A model generated the notes under the pieces. It was not told the origin of the DNA, searched no databases, and saw nothing but the letters and a program-made list of their open reading frames with translations. Shown here piece by piece: positions 1 to 9,702 of a DNA stretch of 10,019 bases (within the stretch, counting starts at the first letter, position 1; the number at the start of each line of letters is the position of its first letter). Origin of the DNA: an uncultured Prevotellaceae bacterium (GTDB taxonomy: Bacteria > Bacteroidota > Bacteroidia > Bacteroidales > Bacteroidaceae); the NCBI GenBank assembly GCA_945486445.1, contig CALYTD010000022.1, forward strand, positions 1 to 10,019, given 5' to 3'. The translations under genes were made by a program, and so were the position numbers.

Positions 1-3000
1 ACTGAAAGTCTTATGGGGACAATGGCAAGAATACTTAATTTGCCTGACCCAATAAGATATATAGGTGCTATTGACGCAAAAGGCCGCCTCCGCATGAATG
101 GCGGCAGTCACCTCTCTGCCAATGCAGACATCAGCGCCAGCAAGGCGGGTAAGGTATCTGTAAACGGTGAATACAATGCCGGGAAGGTACGTTCTACCAT
201 CAAAACCTCAGTCTTAGACCTCACTCCACTTTTCCCAAGACAACAACTTACCCGCCTGAAATGCGAACTTGCCTTAATGGCTGGTATTGACAAACAATGG
301 AACATCACGTCTGGTACGGCCAAAGGTACTATCTCTGAACTGACATACCGCAACTATACATACCGCAACATCAATACGGACATGGCATATACAGGCCAAT
401 CTGTCAGCGGAGTTCTTAGCATACAGGACCCCAACATCAGGCTTTCCTTCGACGGTAAGGCAGACCTCGGAAGACGGAAAGGACTTCATGCCAAGGTATC
501 TCTCAGCGACTTCTGCCCTTCTGCGCTTAACCTCACCCGACAACTTGCAGGCGACCGCATCGCATTGTCACTCAACGCTGACGCCAGTGGCTCCAGCATA
601 GATGACATTTCTGGCTCTGTAAGCCTCACAGACATCAGCATCACCAATCCCAACAGTGACAAGGCTGACACCTATCTGGAAGAAATAAGAATGGAAGTAG
701 GGCACACTGAGGATGGGAAGAAAACAATAAACATGAACAGTGACTTCGCCAATGCCTACCTTCATGGGGACTTTACCGCATCAACGATAGTCAAGAGTTT
801 CACAAACCTCATCACAACCCACCTGCCAGCCGCTACATTCCTGCCAGCACCATCTATAAACTCCAACGACTTCCGTTTTGATGTAACAGTGCAAGACCTC
901 AACTTTGTAAAACGCCTTGTAGCCCTCCCCCTCACTATCAACAGTCCTTTGAGTGCTGGGGGATATGTAAACTCATCCACAGGCAGCGCTGATATATCAC
1001 TGTCAGCACCTGACCTAAACATCTCTGGAACGATATTAAAAGGCACGGACATAAGGGTATGGACAGAGACAGACGCGATATACAGCACAATCAACACCTA
1101 CCTAAACGACAAGACAGGACAAGTAGCAATCTCGCTTGACTGTAAAGGCGAGGATAACACACTCTGCACTAAACTGTCATGGGACAATCAGCGGGCCAAC
1201 ATCTTCCGTGGCGCACTAAACAGCGTGGCACAATTTAACGTTGGCACAAACCGCTCATCAGACATACAGGTGAGTATCCCCCACTCCACATTTGCCGTTG
1301 GCGACACGTTATGGAACATACGCTCACACGGAATAAGCTACAAGAACGGCAGTCTTACCATAAACCATCTCGCCATTGAGAACGACAGCCAGCACCTTTA
1401 CGTCAGCGGAACGGCCTCACCCAACCCCAACGACACTATAGCGGCGGAACTAAAAGACATTAACGTAAGATACATTCTCGACCTTGTAAACTTCCATTCC
1501 GTTGACTTTGACGGTCTTGCCTCTGGCAGTGCTGTATGCTCTGGCGTGATGCAGAAACCCAATGCCATGGCAACTCTCACCATAAAGGACTTCAAGTTTG
1601 AGGGGGGAAAACTCGGAACTATGTCTCTTAACGCTGACTATAACGACGATGAAGGGCAGATAAACGTTGACGGCGCAGCGGTACGTGATACTACTGAACT
1701 GCTTGTCAACGGCAACATATCCCCTATTCGCAACACTATCGACCTCAACATGACACTGCATGACACCCAACTGGACTTCATGCAGAGTTTCTGCGGATCT
1801 TTCCTTAACGATATAGCACTGCAAGGCACGGGACACCTACGCCTGCACGGTCCGCTGAACGCCATCAACCTTGAAGGCAAAGTGAAAACACAAGGGGCGT
1901 TCACACTGACCTCTACCGGCTGTCGCTACACCATGGAGAATGACACTATATCATTCATTCCCAACGACATATTATTCAACTCCTTAACGATAAAGGACAA
2001 AATGGGCGGAATAGCATACCTTGAAGGAGGAGTACACCACCGTAACCTCGGAAGAATATCATACGACATCACGGCAAAGACCAAACGTCTCATAGCATAT
2101 AACTGCCCAATACCTGACGCAGAAGACAACTTCTGCGGATATGCTGTCATTGACGGCGAGATAGGAGTACATGGAAAGGGAAACGAAGTCAACATCACCG
2201 CAGATTGCACACCGCTTGATGGCACGTACTTTACATACAACGCTTCCTCGCCAGAAGCCATAAAGTCACAGGACTTCATAACATGGGGAAGCGCAGACAA
2301 AACCACCCCCAACAACGGAAACACCGAGAAGACAGACTCCATTAGCAAAGCCACTAACACGGAACACCTGCTCAATGCCGGCAACGACAGAGCCAACATA
2401 CGCTTGAACTTCATGCTAAACGTCACGCCCACCGCACGCCTGCACCTTATCATGGACGAGACAACAGGCGACTACGTGGACATCTTCGGCAACGGAACAC
2501 TACGTGTACAGTACTATAACAAGGGCTCATTAGACATTTTCGGCAACTACGTCATTGACCACGGCACATACAAGATGACAATACAGAACCTCATGCGCCG
2601 TGACTTCGCCTTCCAAAAAGGCGGCACAATAGCCTTCGCAGGAGACCCATATAACGCTATACTAAACCTACAAGCAGCCTATACGCTAAACAGCGTGTCA
2701 CTGGCCGACCTCAACATAGGCAGTTCCTTCACCTCAAACAATGTGCCTGTAAACTGTCTTATGAACATATCAGGCACACCAGAAAAGCCAAAGGTGGAAT
2801 TCGGACTAAACCTACCATCACTCAGTTCGGACGCAAGACAGATGGTTTACTCCGTAATAAACTCTGAGGAAGAGATGAACCAGCAGGTGCTGTACCTACT
2901 CGCCATAGGACGATTCTATTCCCAGACCAACGACGACGAGAACACACAACGCACCAAACAGTCAACCCTTGCCATGCAAAGTTTCCTCAGCGGAACACTG

Positions 3001-3351
3001 TCACAACAATTCAACAACGTGCTTGGACAAGTAACAGGCAACACAAACTGGTCATTCGGCGCAAACATCACACCCGGTACCGACGGATTCAACAACGCTA
3101 TATATGAGGGATTGCTAAGCGGAAGAATGTTCAATAACCGACTTATCTTCAACGGGCAGTTCGGCTACCGTGACAATATCAATACCGACACGCAGAACTT
3201 CATAGGCGACTTCACCCTGCAATACCTCCTTACGCCAAACGGGAACTTCGCACTCAAGATGTACAACCAGTCCAACGACCGATACTTCACACGCAGTTCA
3301 CTAAACACACAGGGCATCGGCATAGTGATACAAAAGGAGTTTGGAAAGTAA
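1..3351 (+). CDS. tamB: TamB-like translocation/assembly module protein, C-terminal part (5' end outside window)
   Basis: The frame is open from base 1, so the ATG at base 13 is probably internal; 1116 residues are visible. TamB is an inner-membrane-anchored periplasmic protein with a long beta-rich groove, linked to outer-membrane protein assembly or lipid transport to the outer membrane. The visible part is almost entirely short alternating beta strands rich in N, D, T, S and G (residues 1 to about 755). A polar linker follows (about 757-797, rich in T, N, S), then the conserved TamB/DUF490 C-terminal domain (about 800-1116). Family landmarks are SGTPEKPKVEFGLNLPSL (about 924-941), the stretch NQQVLYLLAIGRFYS, and a C-terminal block with NGQFGYRDN and a short basic end. 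The N-terminal membrane anchor is not in view. No stop or frameshift interrupts the frame. The family call is firm; the exact substrate in Bacteroidota is not established from sequence. Confidence 0.9.
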   Translation, partial: TESLMGTMARILNLPDPIRYIGAIDAKGRLRMNGGSHLSANADISASKAGKVSVNGEYNAGKVRSTIKTSVLDLTPLFPRQQLTRLKCELALMAGIDKQWNITSGTAKGTISELTYRNYTYRNINTDMAYTGQSVSGVLSIQDPNIRLSFDGKADLGRRKGLHAKVSLSDFCPSALNLTRQLAGDRIALSLNADASGSSIDDISGSVSLTDISITNPNSDKADTYLEEIRMEVGHTEDGKKTINMNSDFANAYLHGDFTASTIVKSFTNLITTHLPAATFLPAPSINSNDFRFDVTVQDLNFVKRLVALPLTINSPLSAGGYVNSSTGSADISLSAPDLNISGTILKGTDIRVWTETDAIYSTINTYLNDKTGQVAISLDCKGEDNTLCTKLSWDNQRANIFRGALNSVAQFNVGTNRSSDIQVSIPHSTFAVGDTLWNIRSHGISYKNGSLTINHLAIENDSQHLYVSGTASPNPNDTIAAELKDINVRYILDLVNFHSVDFDGLASGSAVCSGVMQKPNAMATLTIKDFKFEGGKLGTMSLNADYNDDEGQINVDGAAVRDTTELLVNGNISPIRNTIDLNMTLHDTQLDFMQSFCGSFLNDIALQGTGHLRLHGPLNAINLEGKVKTQGAFTLTSTGCRYTMENDTISFIPNDILFNSLTIKDKMGGIAYLEGGVHHRNLGRISYDITAKTKRLIAYNCPIPDAEDNFCGYAVIDGEIGVHGKGNEVNITADCTPLDGTYFTYNASSPEAIKSQDFITWGSADKTTPNNGNTEKTDSISKATNTEHLLNAGNDRANIRLNFMLNVTPTARLHLIMDETTGDYVDIFGNGTLRVQYYNKGSLDIFGNYVIDHGTYKMTIQNLMRRDFAFQKGGTIAFAGDPYNAILNLQAAYTLNSVSLADLNIGSSFTSNNVPVNCLMNISGTPEKPKVEFGLNLPSLSSDARQMVYSVINSEEEMNQQVLYLLAIGRFYSQTNDDENTQRTKQSTLAMQSFLSGTLSQQFNNVLGQVTGNTNWSFGANITPGTDGFNNAIYEGLLSGRMFNNRLIFNGQFGYRDNINTDTQNFIGDFTLQYLLTPNGNFALKMYNQSNDRYFTRSSLNTQGIGIVIQKEFGK

Positions 3352-3393: not shown

Positions 3394-3437
3394 CAATCAG
3401 CCGTTAATCACATTGCAATCAGCCGTTAATCACAATG
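3394..3437 (+). repeat. Tandem 22-base direct repeat, two copies
   Basis: Two head-to-tail 22-base copies lie at 3394-3415 and 3416-3437 and differ at a single base (T versus A, third from the end). Each contains CAATCAGCCGTTAATCAC. The second copy is also the 5' arm of the tamB terminator hairpin, so the first copy can be viewed as a duplicated, competing arm. Confidence 0.85.
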
Positions 3438-3460
3438 TAATTAACAGCTGATTACTTTTT
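3417..3460 (+). terminator. Rho-independent-type terminator after tamB
   Basis: The arm at 3417-3433 pairs with 3437-3453 over 17 positions with two C-A mismatches and a three-base AAT loop. A run of five T follows at 3456-3460. It lies 66 bases past the tamB stop. The upstream repeat copy (3394-3415) could pair with the same 3' arm, giving an alternative, longer-looped hairpin. Confidence 0.65.
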
Positions 3461-3868: not shown

Positions 3869-4693
3869 TCATAACAGCAGTTGCGGCGACTGATGCGGCT
3901 TCAGAACGCGGTACTGCGCAGGATCATCACTCTTGTCTTTCAGGGCTGTGCCGCTAACCTTGTTTGCAAACGCCATCTCCACAAGCCAGGCGAGTTTGAA
4001 TGCTGCGCGATCATACGGCAGACCCTCCGGCCGTATGTTGGAGATGCAGTTGCGCTCACTCTCCAGACGACCGGCGAAAGGCTTGTATGTCATATACAAT
4101 CCAAGGCTGTCCAGCGATGAAAGACCGGGACGTTCGCCTATAAGCATAGCCACAAGTCCGCAGTTCTTCACCTCTGCAATGTCATCACCCAGTGCCACAC
4201 GGCTCTGCTTGGCAAGCACAACAGGCCCTACGGAGAGCCCTAACTCACGCATATAAGGCAGAAATTCGTGTATTAACGGCACGGCCTGCTTGTGGACAGC
4301 CTTGCTCGACAGGCCATCACCAATGACTATCAGCACGTCAGCACCTGCGTATTTCATCTTACGCAAGCGTTCACGACTGACCTCACTAAGCCTTCTTCCG
4401 AGGTCGGGACGCCGTATAAACACATCTCTACTCGTTGCGGCACTCTCAGCAAAGACCACGTCTAAGCCCATATCCTCCAGTCTTTTACGTACCAGCTGCC
4501 TGTCAAACGGCAAATTGATAGTATCTCGTGCACGGGCATGTGCAAGGCTGAAACGCAGATATTCGTCTGTAAGAACACTGCAACCCGTGCGTCCCAACGC
4601 TATGCGGGCATCGGTAAAACGCTTCAGTTCCTCCCAAGGGTCACGGTGAAAAAAGCCTTCTTGCCCCACCGTCAATGTGTTTTCCTTATCCAT
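3869..4693 (-). CDS. eutC: Ethanolamine ammonia-lyase small subunit EutC
   Basis: EutC pairs with EutB to form adenosylcobalamin-dependent ethanolamine ammonia-lyase, which cleaves ethanolamine to acetaldehyde and ammonia; EutC supplies much of the cobalamin pocket. The 274 residues align throughout with the enterobacterial protein (about 295) from its core start. Landmarks are ARIALGRTG (29-37), RRPDLGRRL (94-102), VIGDGLSS (123-130), LIGERPGLSS (184-193) and ERNCISNIRPEG (213-224). The N-terminal extension of microcompartment-type EutC, associated with encapsulation, is absent, which fits a cytosolic enzyme. The start ATG overlaps the end of the upstream EutB frame by 8 bases (4686-4693), implying translational coupling in one operon. 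The subunit appears complete and intact. A bidirectional hairpin lies just downstream. Confidence 0.93.
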   Translation of the reverse strand: MDKENTLTVGQEGFFHRDPWEELKRFTDARIALGRTGCSVLTDEYLRFSLAHARARDTINLPFDRQLVRKRLEDMGLDVVFAESAATSRDVFIRRPDLGRRLSEVSRERLRKMKYAGADVLIVIGDGLSSKAVHKQAVPLIHEFLPYMRELGLSVGPVVLAKQSRVALGDDIAEVKNCGLVAMLIGERPGLSSLDSLGLYMTYKPFAGRLESERNCISNIRPEGLPYDRAAFKLAWLVEMAFANKVSGTALKDKSDDPAQYRVLKPHQSPQLLL

Positions 4694-6530
4694 TTACAGC
4701 CTCCATATGTTCTATTTGCATTAGTCTGTTAGTATTATTAATGGGCAATATGTCGCCATTGTCATCAATGACACTCATGCGTTGCAGCCATTTCTCAAAT
4801 TCAGGAGCATGACGTTTGCCGAGCAGTTTACGTGCATAGAGCGCATCATGATATGAGGTGCTCTGATAGTTCAGCATGATGTCATCAGCGCCCGGTATGC
4901 CCATGATATAGTTCACGCCTGCTGCCACAAGCAAAGTAAGCAGGTTATCCATATCGTCTTGGTGGGCCTCAGCATGGTTGGTGTAACAGATGTCGCACCC
5001 CATAGGCACACCCATCAACTTGCCGCAGAAGTGATCTTCCAGTCCTGCACGCGTGATTTGCTTACCGTCATATAGGTATTCCGGTCCGATGAACCCCACC
5101 ACGGTGTTGACAAGCAACGGTTTGTAGCGGCGTGCCACGGCATAGCAGCGTGCCTCACAGGTCTGTTCGTCAACGCCGAAGTTGGCATCAGAGGACAGAG
5201 CGGAGCCCTGCCCCGTCTCGAAATACATACAGTTGTTGCCTACGGCACCACGACGTAGCGAGGTGACAGCCTCATATCCCTCATCAAGCATCTTGAGATT
5301 TATGCCAAAGCCGGCATTGGCAGCCTCCGTACCTGCTATGCTTTGGAACAACAAATCGACCGGCGCACCGTGCTCTATCATCTCCATGCAGGTGGTGACG
5401 TGCGTAAGTACGCAACTCTGCGTAGGTATTTCGTATGTCTGTATGATGTCGTCCAGCATGTAATTCAGTTCCGTTAGCACCGGCAGCGAGTCGCTCGCAG
5501 GGTTGATTCCGATGACGGCATCATCACTACCGTACATAAGTCCATCAACAATACTGACGGCAATGCCTTTCAAGTCGTCAACAGGGTGGTTAGGCTGAAG
5601 CCTTACTGAAAGATGCCCTGGCAGCCCTATGGTGTCACGAAACTTAGTGACCACGATACATTTCTGAGCAACAAGCATAAGGTCTTGATTGCGCATCATC
5701 TTACTTACATCTGCTGCCATCTCAGGAGTTATGGCAGGTGCCACCTGTGCCAACATACCACTTGTTGTTGATTCGCTAAGAAGCCAGTTACGAAAGTCGC
5801 CCACCGTGAGATGACTGGTAGGTAATACACTGATTTTCAACGCACGTGGAAGAGTATATTGAGGGTATTTTGTCTCACCACCTACTGACACACAGGTCTC
5901 GAAACCAGTATAACACCACCATACAAGACCAAAGATATACATCATTTCCTTAAATGGAGGCATCTTGTCCATTGCTATACCGCCAAAGTATTCAAGGTGA
6001 ATCTTGGGTATCATGTAAAGAAACCAGCAGATACTACAAGCCCAGAAGAAGAAAATGAAGAACGTCTGAGCCTTGCCTGACTGCTTGATACCAAAATAGT
6101 TAAGCACCAAGAAAATGGCTACCAGCAAACAAGCGATAATACGAGGGTTAAGCCACGTTATGTCAAAACCTGTGGCTTGAAGCAGAATAGTGAAATAATT
6201 AGAAAAGGCAAGGGTCTCACCTGCACCAATGGCAACCACAGAAACAATGTAATGCCAGCCCGCCATATTTGCCCAAATGCGGTTAAGTCCACGCTTAGCA
6301 AAGTTGTATGTACCTCCTGCCTCTGGCAACACAGCTGACATTTCGCCATATATAAGACACGGCCAGATACTTACAAGGAGTGATACAAACGTGAAACCGA
6401 TAATCCAGGAACCTACAAGGCCAATCTGTGAGGAACCACATGTGAAAAGACCTACGCCCACTACTGTACCAATAGTCATGCTGATAGACTCCTTGAGTCC
6501 CAGCACTCTCAACAATTTGTTTTCTACCAT
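4686..6530 (-). CDS. eutB: In-frame fusion: N-terminal half of an APC-family (ethanolamine?) permease joined to N-truncated EutB
   Basis: The 614-residue frame has two unrelated parts. Residues 1 to about 235 are the first half of an APC-superfamily permease: about six membrane segments (roughly 14-36, 40-62, 88-112, 130-148, 155-175, 195-215) and the post-TM6 loop GGETKYPQYTLPRAL. Segments 7-12 are missing. From about residue 238 the protein is EutB, aligning with E. coli EutB (453 residues) from about residue 89 to its end. Substrate-site residues align with E. coli R160, Q162, N193, E287, F329 and D362 as R310, Q312, N343, E438, F480 and D513. The region between, namely the permease C-terminal half, the gene boundary and about 88 EutB residues, is absent, probably roughly 1 kb. 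The likely ancestral order is permease-eutB-eutC. The frame is unbroken, but neither half is complete, so transport is unlikely and lyase activity doubtful. Misassembly is a real alternative. The start has an A-rich leader, usual for the phylum. Confidence 0.88.
   Translation of the reverse strand: MVENKLLRVLGLKESISMTIGTVVGVGLFTCGSSQIGLVGSWIIGFTFVSLLVSIWPCLIYGEMSAVLPEAGGTYNFAKRGLNRIWANMAGWHYIVSVVAIGAGETLAFSNYFTILLQATGFDITWLNPRIIACLLVAIFLVLNYFGIKQSGKAQTFFIFFFWACSICWFLYMIPKIHLEYFGGIAMDKMPPFKEMMYIFGLVWWCYTGFETCVSVGGETKYPQYTLPRALKISVLPTSHLTVGDFRNWLLSESTTSGMLAQVAPAITPEMAADVSKMMRNQDLMLVAQKCIVVTKFRDTIGLPGHLSVRLQPNHPVDDLKGIAVSIVDGLMYGSDDAVIGINPASDSLPVLTELNYMLDDIIQTYEIPTQSCVLTHVTTCMEMIEHGAPVDLLFQSIAGTEAANAGFGINLKMLDEGYEAVTSLRRGAVGNNCMYFETGQGSALSSDANFGVDEQTCEARCYAVARRYKPLLVNTVVGFIGPEYLYDGKQITRAGLEDHFCGKLMGVPMGCDICYTNHAEAHQDDMDNLLTLLVAAGVNYIMGIPGADDIMLNYQSTSYHDALYARKLLGKRHAPEFEKWLQRMSVIDDNGDILPINNTNRLMQIEHMEAVNG
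5808..5832 (-). other. Junction between permease and EutB sequence
   Basis: Family resemblance switches around residues 233-241 of the fused frame: permease-like LPRALKISV ends and EutB-like SHLTVGDFRNWLL begins. Either LP or PTSH could belong to either parent, so the exact breakpoint is uncertain by a few codons. No insertion sequence, obvious inverted repeat or composition change marks the site. Confidence 0.75.
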
Positions 6531-6550
6531 AATTGTAATTGTGTTTGTGT

Positions 6551-6595
6551 TGTTGTTATCCTAATATATAAATAATGTTGTCGTGTTGTTATCCT
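6551..6595 (-). repeat. 12-base direct repeats in the eut leader
   Basis: TGTTGTTATCCT occurs at 6551-6562 and again at 6584-6595, a spacing of 33 bases (about three helical turns). On the eut-sense strand it reads AGGATAACAACA, placed about 20 and 55 bases before the permease-EutB start. It could be a regulator site or a chance duplication in low-complexity sequence. Confidence 0.5.
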
Positions 6596-6693
6596 GCAAG
6601 AGCGTTCTGGCCCAAATCACATTACCACATTATTGTGTTATCCATCAAATTACCAATTTGTAGCATCAGCATTGAAACCTACAAAGAAGCAAA

Positions 6694-6726
6694 CAAAATA
6701 TCTTCGCGTTCTAATTTTGATACAAA
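6694..6726 (-). promoter_or_regulatory. Possible promoter of the eut operon
   Basis: On the - strand, TTTG (6723-6726) lies 22 bases upstream of TATTTTG (6694-6700), a near match to the -33/-7 pair but one base short of TAnnTTTG. It would give a leader of about 155 bases. No better candidate was seen upstream of the eut genes. Confidence 0.3.
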
Positions 6727-7014
6727 TTCATACATTTTGTCATTATTACGCAAATTTTATTAACAAAAAGTTGCATAATAGATAGATTTTTATTACATTT
6801 CATCAAATAAGAGATAAATATGGTAGATCTATCGACTTATTCGGCAGTTCATCTTGTATTCATGGGTAAATAAACGCTCACATAAAGACAGAGTGTATGA
6901 GGTAACAAACTACTTTACCCGAATTTCACACCTCGTTTTTACTCCAACGATACCAGATAGAGTATAAAAAGCAGCAAAGAGCCTAAGTAACAGAGTAACA
7001 AAACAGTGAAAAAG

Positions 7015-7046
7015 TTTGTGAAAACCAGAATTAATTTGTAACTTTG
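7015..7046 (+). promoter_or_regulatory. alaS promoter, Bacteroidota type
   Basis: TTTG (7015-7018) and TAACTTTG (7039-7046) are separated by 20 bases and match the phylum's -33/-7 consensus fully. Transcription would start about 7051-7053, giving a leader of roughly 35 A-rich bases before the alaS ATG. There is no Shine-Dalgarno motif, as is usual in this phylum. Confidence 0.75.
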
Positions 7047-7086
7047 CATTCAAAATGAACAGAAAAAACAACAAAACAACAAAACA

Positions 7087-9702
7087 ATGTTGACAGCGAA
7101 AGAAATACGTGAATCTTTCAAATCATTCTTTGAAAGCAAAGGACACCTCATCGTACCATCAGCACCTATGGTGGTAAAAGATGACCCTACACTGATGTTT
7201 ACCAACGCTGGTATGAACCAGTTTAAGGACATCATTCTCGGAAACACAACTCCCAAGAGCCGCAGGCAGGCCGATACGCAAAAGTGTCTTCGTGTCTCTG
7301 GCAAGCACAACGACCTTGAAGAGGTAGGACATGACACCTACCACCACACCATGTTTGAAATGCTTGGCAACTGGTCTTTTGGTGACTACTTCAAGAAAGA
7401 AGCCATATCATGGGCATGGGAATACATTGTCGATGTATTAAAGATTGACCCTTCCGACCTATATGCAACAGTATTCGAAGGTTCAGAGGAAGAAGGACTG
7501 CAGCGCGATGATGAGGCAGCAAGCATATGGGAGCAGTATTTGCCCCAAGACCACATAATAAATGGTAACAAACATGATAACTTCTGGGAGATGGGTGACA
7601 CTGGACCATGCGGCCCCTGCTCAGAAATACATGTTGACTCACGTTCTAAAGAAGAAAAAGAAAAGATTCCTGGACGCGAGCTTGTAAACAAAGATCACCC
7701 GCAAGTGATAGAGATTTGGAACCTTGTATTCATGCAATTCAACCGCAAGGCTGACGGTTCTCTTGAAGGACTGCCTGCCAAGGTCATTGACACAGGCATG
7801 GGCTTTGAGCGACTTGTGCGCACATTGCAAGGCAAAACATCTAACTATGACACGGATATCTTCCAGCCTCTTATCACTGTTATGGCAGAGATGGCAGGAT
7901 GTAAATATGGTGAAGACGAGAAAAAAGACATCGCTCTGCGTGTTATTGTTGACCATCTGCGCGCCATTGCGTTTGCCATTGCAGACGGACAACTGCCTTC
8001 CAATGCAAAAGCCGGTTACGTTATACGCCGCATATTGCGTCGCGCTGTGCGTTATGGATACACTTTCCTTGGACAGAAAGAGGCCTTTATATACAAACTT
8101 GTCCCCACTCTTGTAGAAGAAATGGGTGCCGCATTCCCCGAACTCCCTGCACAACAGAAACTAATCATGAAAGTGATGCAAGAAGAGGAAGCATCATTTC
8201 TACGCACACTAGAGAACGGCATACGCCTTCTGCAAGGAGTTATCAACGAGACAAAGAGCGCAGGTAAGACAGAGATTGCAGGCGACAAAGCCTTCACATT
8301 GTTCGATACCTTTGGTTTTCCACTTGACCTCACAGAACTAATCTGTCGCGAACAGGGCATGACTGTTGACGGTAAAGGCTTTGACATTTGCATGCAGGAA
8401 CAGAAAAACCGGGCTCGTAACGCTGCTGAGGTACACCTCGGAGATTGGGTAATGGTAAAAGATGCAGAATCATCATTCGTTGGTTACGACTACACAGAAT
8501 ACCCCTGTCATATTGTAAAATACCGTGAGGTAAAGCAGAAGAAGAGCACTGCCTACGAGATGATACTCGACTACACTCCCTTCTACGGCGAAATGGGCGG
8601 TGAAATAGGTGACACCGGCGTACTCGTAAGTGAGAACGAAGAGATAAAAGTGCTTGATACGAAGAAGGAAAACGGCGTAGCAATACAGATTGTCAATAAG
8701 CTTCCAGAGAACCCGGAGGCAGAGTTCATGGCCTGTGTTGACATTGATCGCCGCCATGCCATAGAGTCAAACCACACCTGTACACACCTGCTTGACGCTG
8801 CATTGCGTGAAGTTCTCGGTACACATGTTGAGCAAAAAGGCTCGCTCGTAACTGCTGATTATCTACGTTTTGACTTCTCACACTTTGAGAAAGTCACCGC
8901 TGAGCAGTTACGCGAGGTAGAACATATCGTAAACAGGAACATTAGACAGAACATCCCTTTACAGGAATTCCGTGACACACCGATAGAAGAAGCAAAGCAA
9001 CTGGGTGCCATAGCATTATTCGGTGAGAAGTACGGCGACAAGGTGCGCGTTGTAAAATTCGGTAACAGTGTTGAATTTTGCGGCGGTTGCCACGCAAAGT
9101 CCACTGGCCAGATAGGCATGGTGCGTATAACAGCAGAAAGCAGTGTCGCTGCTGGAGTGCGCCGCATAGAGGCCATAACGGGCAAGGCGGTAGAGGAAAT
9201 GATGGATAATGCACAAGACATGATTAACGACCTCCGTGCCCTTTTCAACAATGCTCCTAACCTGATGGCAACAATTGAGAAAGCCATTAACGACAACAAG
9301 GAACTGCAAGCACAAGTGGACGAGTTCAAAGCACAGAAGGCTATGCAGTGCAAGGAGGCTCTCATAAGCAAAGCCAACGATGTAAACGGCATAAAAGTAA
9401 TATCCGGCATTTGTCCTGTTGACCCACAGAACGCCAAGGATATTGCCTTCCAATTGCGTGCACAGTTCCCGGAAAACCTCATAGTAGCATTAGGTTGTGA
9501 AGTAGGAGGCAAACCCAACATAACGGTAGCCCTTTCTGATGACCTTGTGGTGGCTGGCAAGAACGCAGGCAAGATAGTGCGTGAGGCAGGCAAACTCATT
9601 CAAGGTGGCGGAGGCGGACAGCCTCATTTTGCTACGGCAGGAGGCAAGAACGCAGAAGGCTTGAAGGCTGCCATTGACAAGATTGTAGAACTTTGCGTAT
9701 AG
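7087..9702 (+). CDS. alaS: Alanine--tRNA ligase
   Basis: AlaRS charges tRNA-Ala with alanine in the cytosol and edits mischarged serine or glycine. The 871 residues match the usual bacterial length (E. coli 876). The class II catalytic domain is N-terminal: motif 1 region around [10 protein letters not shown] (20-29), motif 2 region [13 protein letters not shown] (69-81) with [13 protein letters not shown] (90-102), and motif 3 GMGFERL (237-243). A helical tRNA-recognition region follows (about 245-455). The editing domain carries the zinc ligands H563 and H567 in HTCTH, and C665 and H669 in CGGCH. The C-terminal C-Ala (DHHA1) domain spans about 760-871, with a glycine-rich [14 protein letters not shown] stretch near 840-853. 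All core residues are present and the gene looks fully functional. The start at 7087 aligns with family N-termini ([10 protein letters not shown]). It is transcribed alone, between its own promoter and terminator. Confidence 0.98.

Follow-up and report, generated by a model that had tools for sequence, protein, structure and literature searches.

An open permease-EutB fusion left by a 1034-bp deletion in a Prevotella lineage: probably a young chimeric pseudogene

The window analysed here, 10,019 nucleotides long, is an entire contig of a 1.42-Mb draft genome (50.6% complete, 272 contigs), which we assign to Prevotella on the strength of its nearest relatives' records. At 4686-6530 on its minus strand lies a single open frame of 614 amino acids with an ATG start, made up of residues 1-235 of an APC permease followed by EutB from residue 87 on. 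The closest relative found, Prevotella sp. SUG853 (locus L032), is 91-93% identical at the DNA level and syntenic across the 10 kb. The features are as follows.

1..3351, plus strand: C-terminal part of a flanking gene that we take from its sequence, without a family call, to be TamB/AsmA-like; syntenic in L032, 92.6% identical to the L032 protein
3869..4693, minus strand: eutC, full length (PF05985, 283.7 bits; NF003971, 297.3 bits, cut-off 230)
4686..5822, minus strand: EutB portion of the fusion (3'), residue 87 through the normal C-terminus, with the whole (beta/alpha)8 barrel kept
5817..5825, minus strand: junction where the permease reading ends and the EutB reading begins (blastn and breakpoint scan against L032)
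5826..6530, minus strand: permease portion of the fusion (5'), residues 1-235, the N-terminal half of an APC-family protein (PF13520 profile 1-231 of 427; about 96% identical to the N-terminal half of the L032 permease)
7087..9702, plus strand: flanking gene, presumably alaS, named from its sequence rather than by a family call; syntenic in L032, 97.5% identical to the L032 protein

The first-pass annotation described a frame running without interruption from a permease into EutB, and both domains are indeed found in the one frame by Pfam, with residues 10-239 matching positions 1-231 of 427 in AA_permease_2 (PF13520, E 3e-22) and residues 239-594 matching positions 78-432 of 435 in the EutB profile (E 1e-182). 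The EutB part scores above cut-off with both family models (PF06751, 608.3 bits against 25; NF011649, 596.6 bits against 554). Its entry point had been put at about E. coli residue 89, which is close; since residue 242 aligns with E. coli EutB 92, residue 237 corresponds to E. coli 87, and the same residue is also residue 87 of the intact L032 EutB. The normal C-terminus and the 8-base overlap with eutC were correctly read, the overlap lying at 4686-4693 and being identical in L032. Against E. coli EutB (3abo_A) the fused protein is 46% identical over 363 structurally aligned residues, and the residues aligned with R160, Q162, N193, E287 and D362, which we take to be the active-site residues of the E. 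coli enzyme, are all present. The fusion thus resembles EutB of E. coli (3abo) and Listeria (2qez) in its barrel and aligned active-site residues, and differs from them in having a half-permease where the conserved N-terminal segment (residues 1-86) should be, and in being altered, in the window and its relatives, at near-invariant columns. The structure model of the intact L032 EutB is poor (mean 42), and hence was not used for the N-terminal segment.

The permease part agrees with the first 235 residues of the intact 490-aa APC-superfamily permease of L032, and in contrast to that protein lacks everything from residue 236; accordingly the full-length APC core is absent, the PF13520 match stopping barely past the middle of the profile. 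As expected of the family, this part would end in the loop that follows membrane helix six or so, and with twelve helices typical of APC proteins about six would be missing. The six or so membrane segments claimed initially fit this family pattern and the profile range, a count to which the structure model adds no support because its permease half is too poor (pLDDT mostly under 50). The fusion falls short of the ethanolamine permease equivalog TIGR00908 (27.4 bits, cut-off 381.75), as does the intact L032 permease (100.2 bits), and ethanolamine as the substrate is suggested only by the gene neighbourhood.

Comparison with the intact operon, one of the checks proposed for this locus, defines the missing bases. 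L032 encodes a separate permease (4262-5734) and a 464-aa EutB (5746-7140) with 11 nt between them, and 1034 bp of its sequence, between about 4968 and 6009, are missing from the window, taking with them permease residues 236-490 and EutB residues 1-86. The first-pass annotation was right to propose a deletion of about 1 kb across the permease-eutB boundary and wrong to call it in-frame: 1034 is not divisible by 3, and it is by chance that the deletion put into one frame two genes that stand in different frames when intact. Homology at the breakpoint, judged against L032, amounts to at most 1-2 bp; a TTCCT microhomology near both L032 breakpoints was considered and rejected, as the observed joint is one codon shorter. 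The other Prevotella-type loci with both genes (L033/G029, L034, L035, G011, G037 and G314) also have the permease directly before eutB, and five eutB-bearing genomes of the same genus (G023, G051, G195, G289 and G420) give no match to the permease half at E <= 1e-30. Elsewhere in the 10 kb, the window is colinear with L032 except in part of the tamB-eutC intergenic region. By gene coordinates, this region is about 245 bp longer in L032; in the window it holds, at 3394-3447, two tandem 22-nt repeats and an inverted partner that give a long terminator-like hairpin. Rfam has no match in the window.

Two points against a natural fusion had been raised: an intact operon in the same species, and an assembly collapse. 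The first is only approached, as L032 at its level of DNA identity is probably a sister species rather than the same species, and none of the intact permeases among the best 120 of 690 permease-half matches exceeds 96% identity to the window. As for the second, a search of 5.8 billion proteins for the same junction, another of the proposed checks, found four more proteins in which both domains meet at the same joint: P0001, P0002, P0003 and P0004, listed on 1, 2, 1 and 1 contigs (five in total). P0001-P0003 have 614 residues and P0004, which begins at residue 64 of the other fused alleles and may be cut by a contig end or by a break in the gene, has 551; all are 97-98% identical to the window's protein, and each of the five fused alleles differs from the other four. 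With residues 196-275 as the query the four score 162-168 bits, and the next protein among the 120 best of 289 matches scores 88. The cluster sizes of P0003 (4) and P0004 (16) were not taken as counts of fused proteins, as intact EutBs may be inside. Collapse of a single metagenome-derived contig might be feared in a draft genome so incomplete and fragmented, yet the same junction stands in four non-identical proteins that differ from the window's by 2-3%, on which ground we reject it as very improbable; moreover, no repeat that could drive a collapse or misassembly was found at the junction, and the colinearity of the remaining 10 kb also speaks against it. The fusion is a real deletion chimera, common to its lineage.

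Outside these alleles the fusion is scarce in what was searched. It was recognised in none of the 397 genomes that the genus sample contains besides the window's own (398 in all); ten of the 397 do match at E <= 1e-30, and in one case the match is just a fragment. None of 93 other loci has both parts in one stop-free frame; of all 96 loci, just the window's own three copies do. There was no fusion match in viral_contigs, and none of the 206 matching plasmid records covers 80% of the query at one place. Apparent full-length fusions in G029 and G011 (980 and 987 aa) were rejected, their frames reading through the stop between separate genes. In the literature, a permease-EutB fusion was not found in titles or abstract openings among the matches listed.

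A real fusion may be either kept or decaying, the two outcomes foreseen in the first-pass annotation, and here the distribution of changes among the fused alleles is informative. These changes were scored by how conserved each column is in intact relatives (L032 set apart; 162 EutBs and 103 permeases). Of 16 changes in the EutB half, 7 fall in columns that are at least 98% conserved, about the 46% expected of random hits, whereas 20 control clusters of near-identical intact EutBs have 18 of 182 changes there (Fisher p = 0.0012, a rough value, since changes in related alleles are not independent). Intact EutB pairs that are 93-99% identical give 50 of 1543 at such columns, with single pairs reaching up to one half (120 of 260 pairs). 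The near-invariant changes are A274D, A325V and D523H in the window, G336D in the window and P0001, R494H in P0002, and R494C and P576H in P0004. Sequence errors in single contigs could be a source of extra random changes, and are an unlikely cause at two of these positions because G336D is common to two alleles and R494 is altered in two different ways. G336 corresponds to EutB G186, seven residues before N193. In the permease half the difference is not significant (4 of 13 against 8 of 56, with 57% expected at random; p = 0.22, equally rough).

Several other observations speak against decay. Between the window and L032, dN/dS is 0.10 for the permease, 0.053 for eutB, 0.079 for eutC, 0.043 for alaS and 0.16 for tamB; these low values speak for a mostly constrained history, much of which may predate the deletion. 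P0003 and L032 differ at eight EutB positions, none of them in the at-least-98% columns, and the private changes in the N-terminal half of P0003 all lie in variable columns except at position 132. In a tree, the fused EutB halves group together beside L032 (support 0.905), and the N-terminal half of P0003 falls outside the other fused N-terminal halves with weak support (0.676), a placement that could leave room for recombination or an older deletion. No stops or frameshifts were seen in the five fused alleles, in a search that covers proteins of 0.55-1.75 times the query length and so lets broken alleles escape. In eutC, 0 of 15 differences between window and L032 lie at columns conserved to at least 95%, which make up 53 of its 271. 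Two residues of the window's EutC, produced by M176K and P194L, occur in 0 of 54 other EutCs at those columns.

Taken together, the conserved-column damage in the EutB half supports the decaying-operon alternative, and we put at roughly three in four the chance that the fusion is a young chimeric pseudogene, still open and losing function. A 1034-bp deletion in the ancestor of this Prevotella lineage would have struck the permease-eutB-eutC operon and by chance have left one open frame. Half a permease would not be able to transport, and a EutB without its head would no longer assemble into a normal lyase, so that the open chimeric pseudogene would drift as selection on it relaxes; if it still yields a membrane-anchored EutB, that protein would be a by-product, nearly or wholly inactive.

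The opposite possibility, a new membrane-bound lyase, had also been raised at the outset and is weakened because a conserved segment of EutB is lost and near-invariant columns have changed at a random rate. It would have the six-helix half of the permease anchor the EutB barrel on the cytoplasmic side, where the barrel, partnered by EutC, would deaminate ethanolamine that enters by diffusion or another carrier. The frame has stayed open in five alleles, the barrel and the putative catalytic residues are retained, eutC is full length and without excess damage, and overall dN/dS is low. The proposal is also not absurd, since in the excerpted text of PMC9426561 the native EutBC of Acinetobacter baumannii supports growth without a metabolosome or EutA and is located at the cell membrane, and that species is said there to have no identifiable EutA or shell genes. 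Its eutH permease gene and eutB are separate, 16 bp apart, and that text mentions no fusion, in contrast to the window. Likewise, eight eutB-bearing Prevotella-type genomes (G000, which is the window's and incomplete, G011, G023, G029, G037, G051, G289 and G438) give no EutA matches and no BMC shell matches, in agreement with the short eut operons in the excerpted text of PMC5821096. Against all this stand the 86 residues lost, 31 of them in at-least-98% conserved columns and 35 in at-least-95% columns (scored over 46 EutBs of other loci, mostly non-Prevotella), the random rate of change already described, and the lack of any transport function expected of half a permease. The evidence thus favours decay, and a working tethered lyase appears unlikely. 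We judge it a shade less likely still that the half transporter, as an anchor replacing the N-terminal segment of EutB, has been kept in the Prevotella lineage as part of a functional ethanolamine ammonia-lyase.

It is conceivable, and less probable again, that only one part is still in use: the EutB portion would drift, and the fusion would act as a stub in the membrane or as a leader through which eutC goes on being translated. In keeping with this, neither the permease half nor eutC has a significant excess of damage, and the 8-base eutC overlap is retained. Both damage tests are of small power, however, and neither a six-helix APC half nor EutC by itself has a role known to us.

The preferred reading, decay of an open chimera, has parallels in other eut loci. 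In G343, an 86%-complete genome of the same genus, a eutB-eutC relic lies inside a 78.7-kb contig (L095, G343:C59, 1359-1737); of EutB it keeps only residues 358-435, including a stop, and of EutC only residues 210-266, and it adjoins a tamB-like gene that is 74% identical to the window's and stands in the other relative orientation. A second chimera is P0135, a 680-aa protein listed on nine contigs, in which EutB 1-259 runs into a permease without roughly the first two helices. The two portions match Blautia schinkii L087 at 5728-6519 and 8190-9458, where the gene order is eutB-eutC-permease, and relative to that order P0135 is without eutC and the C-terminal half of EutB. Like the window's fusion it unites eutB in frame with a related permease gene; unlike it, the order is reversed and the C-terminal half of EutB is gone, so that P0135 should not be a working lyase. 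The relic and P0135 indicate that deletions in eut loci can leave open chimeric frames that are not expected to be working lyases. Two further proteins, P0200 and P0206, are related permeases cut short and joined to a DUF6198 or an FDX-ACB domain, as chimeras or assembly joins.

In a draft genome, then, an unusual in-frame fusion can be real and found across a lineage and yet be disappearing, and the way in which allele differences are distributed over conserved columns can help to separate fusions that are real and kept from those that are real and decaying. Were the fusion active, it would offer a natural system for testing whether EutB can do without its N-terminal segment, and what tethering to the membrane does to an AdoCbl enzyme.
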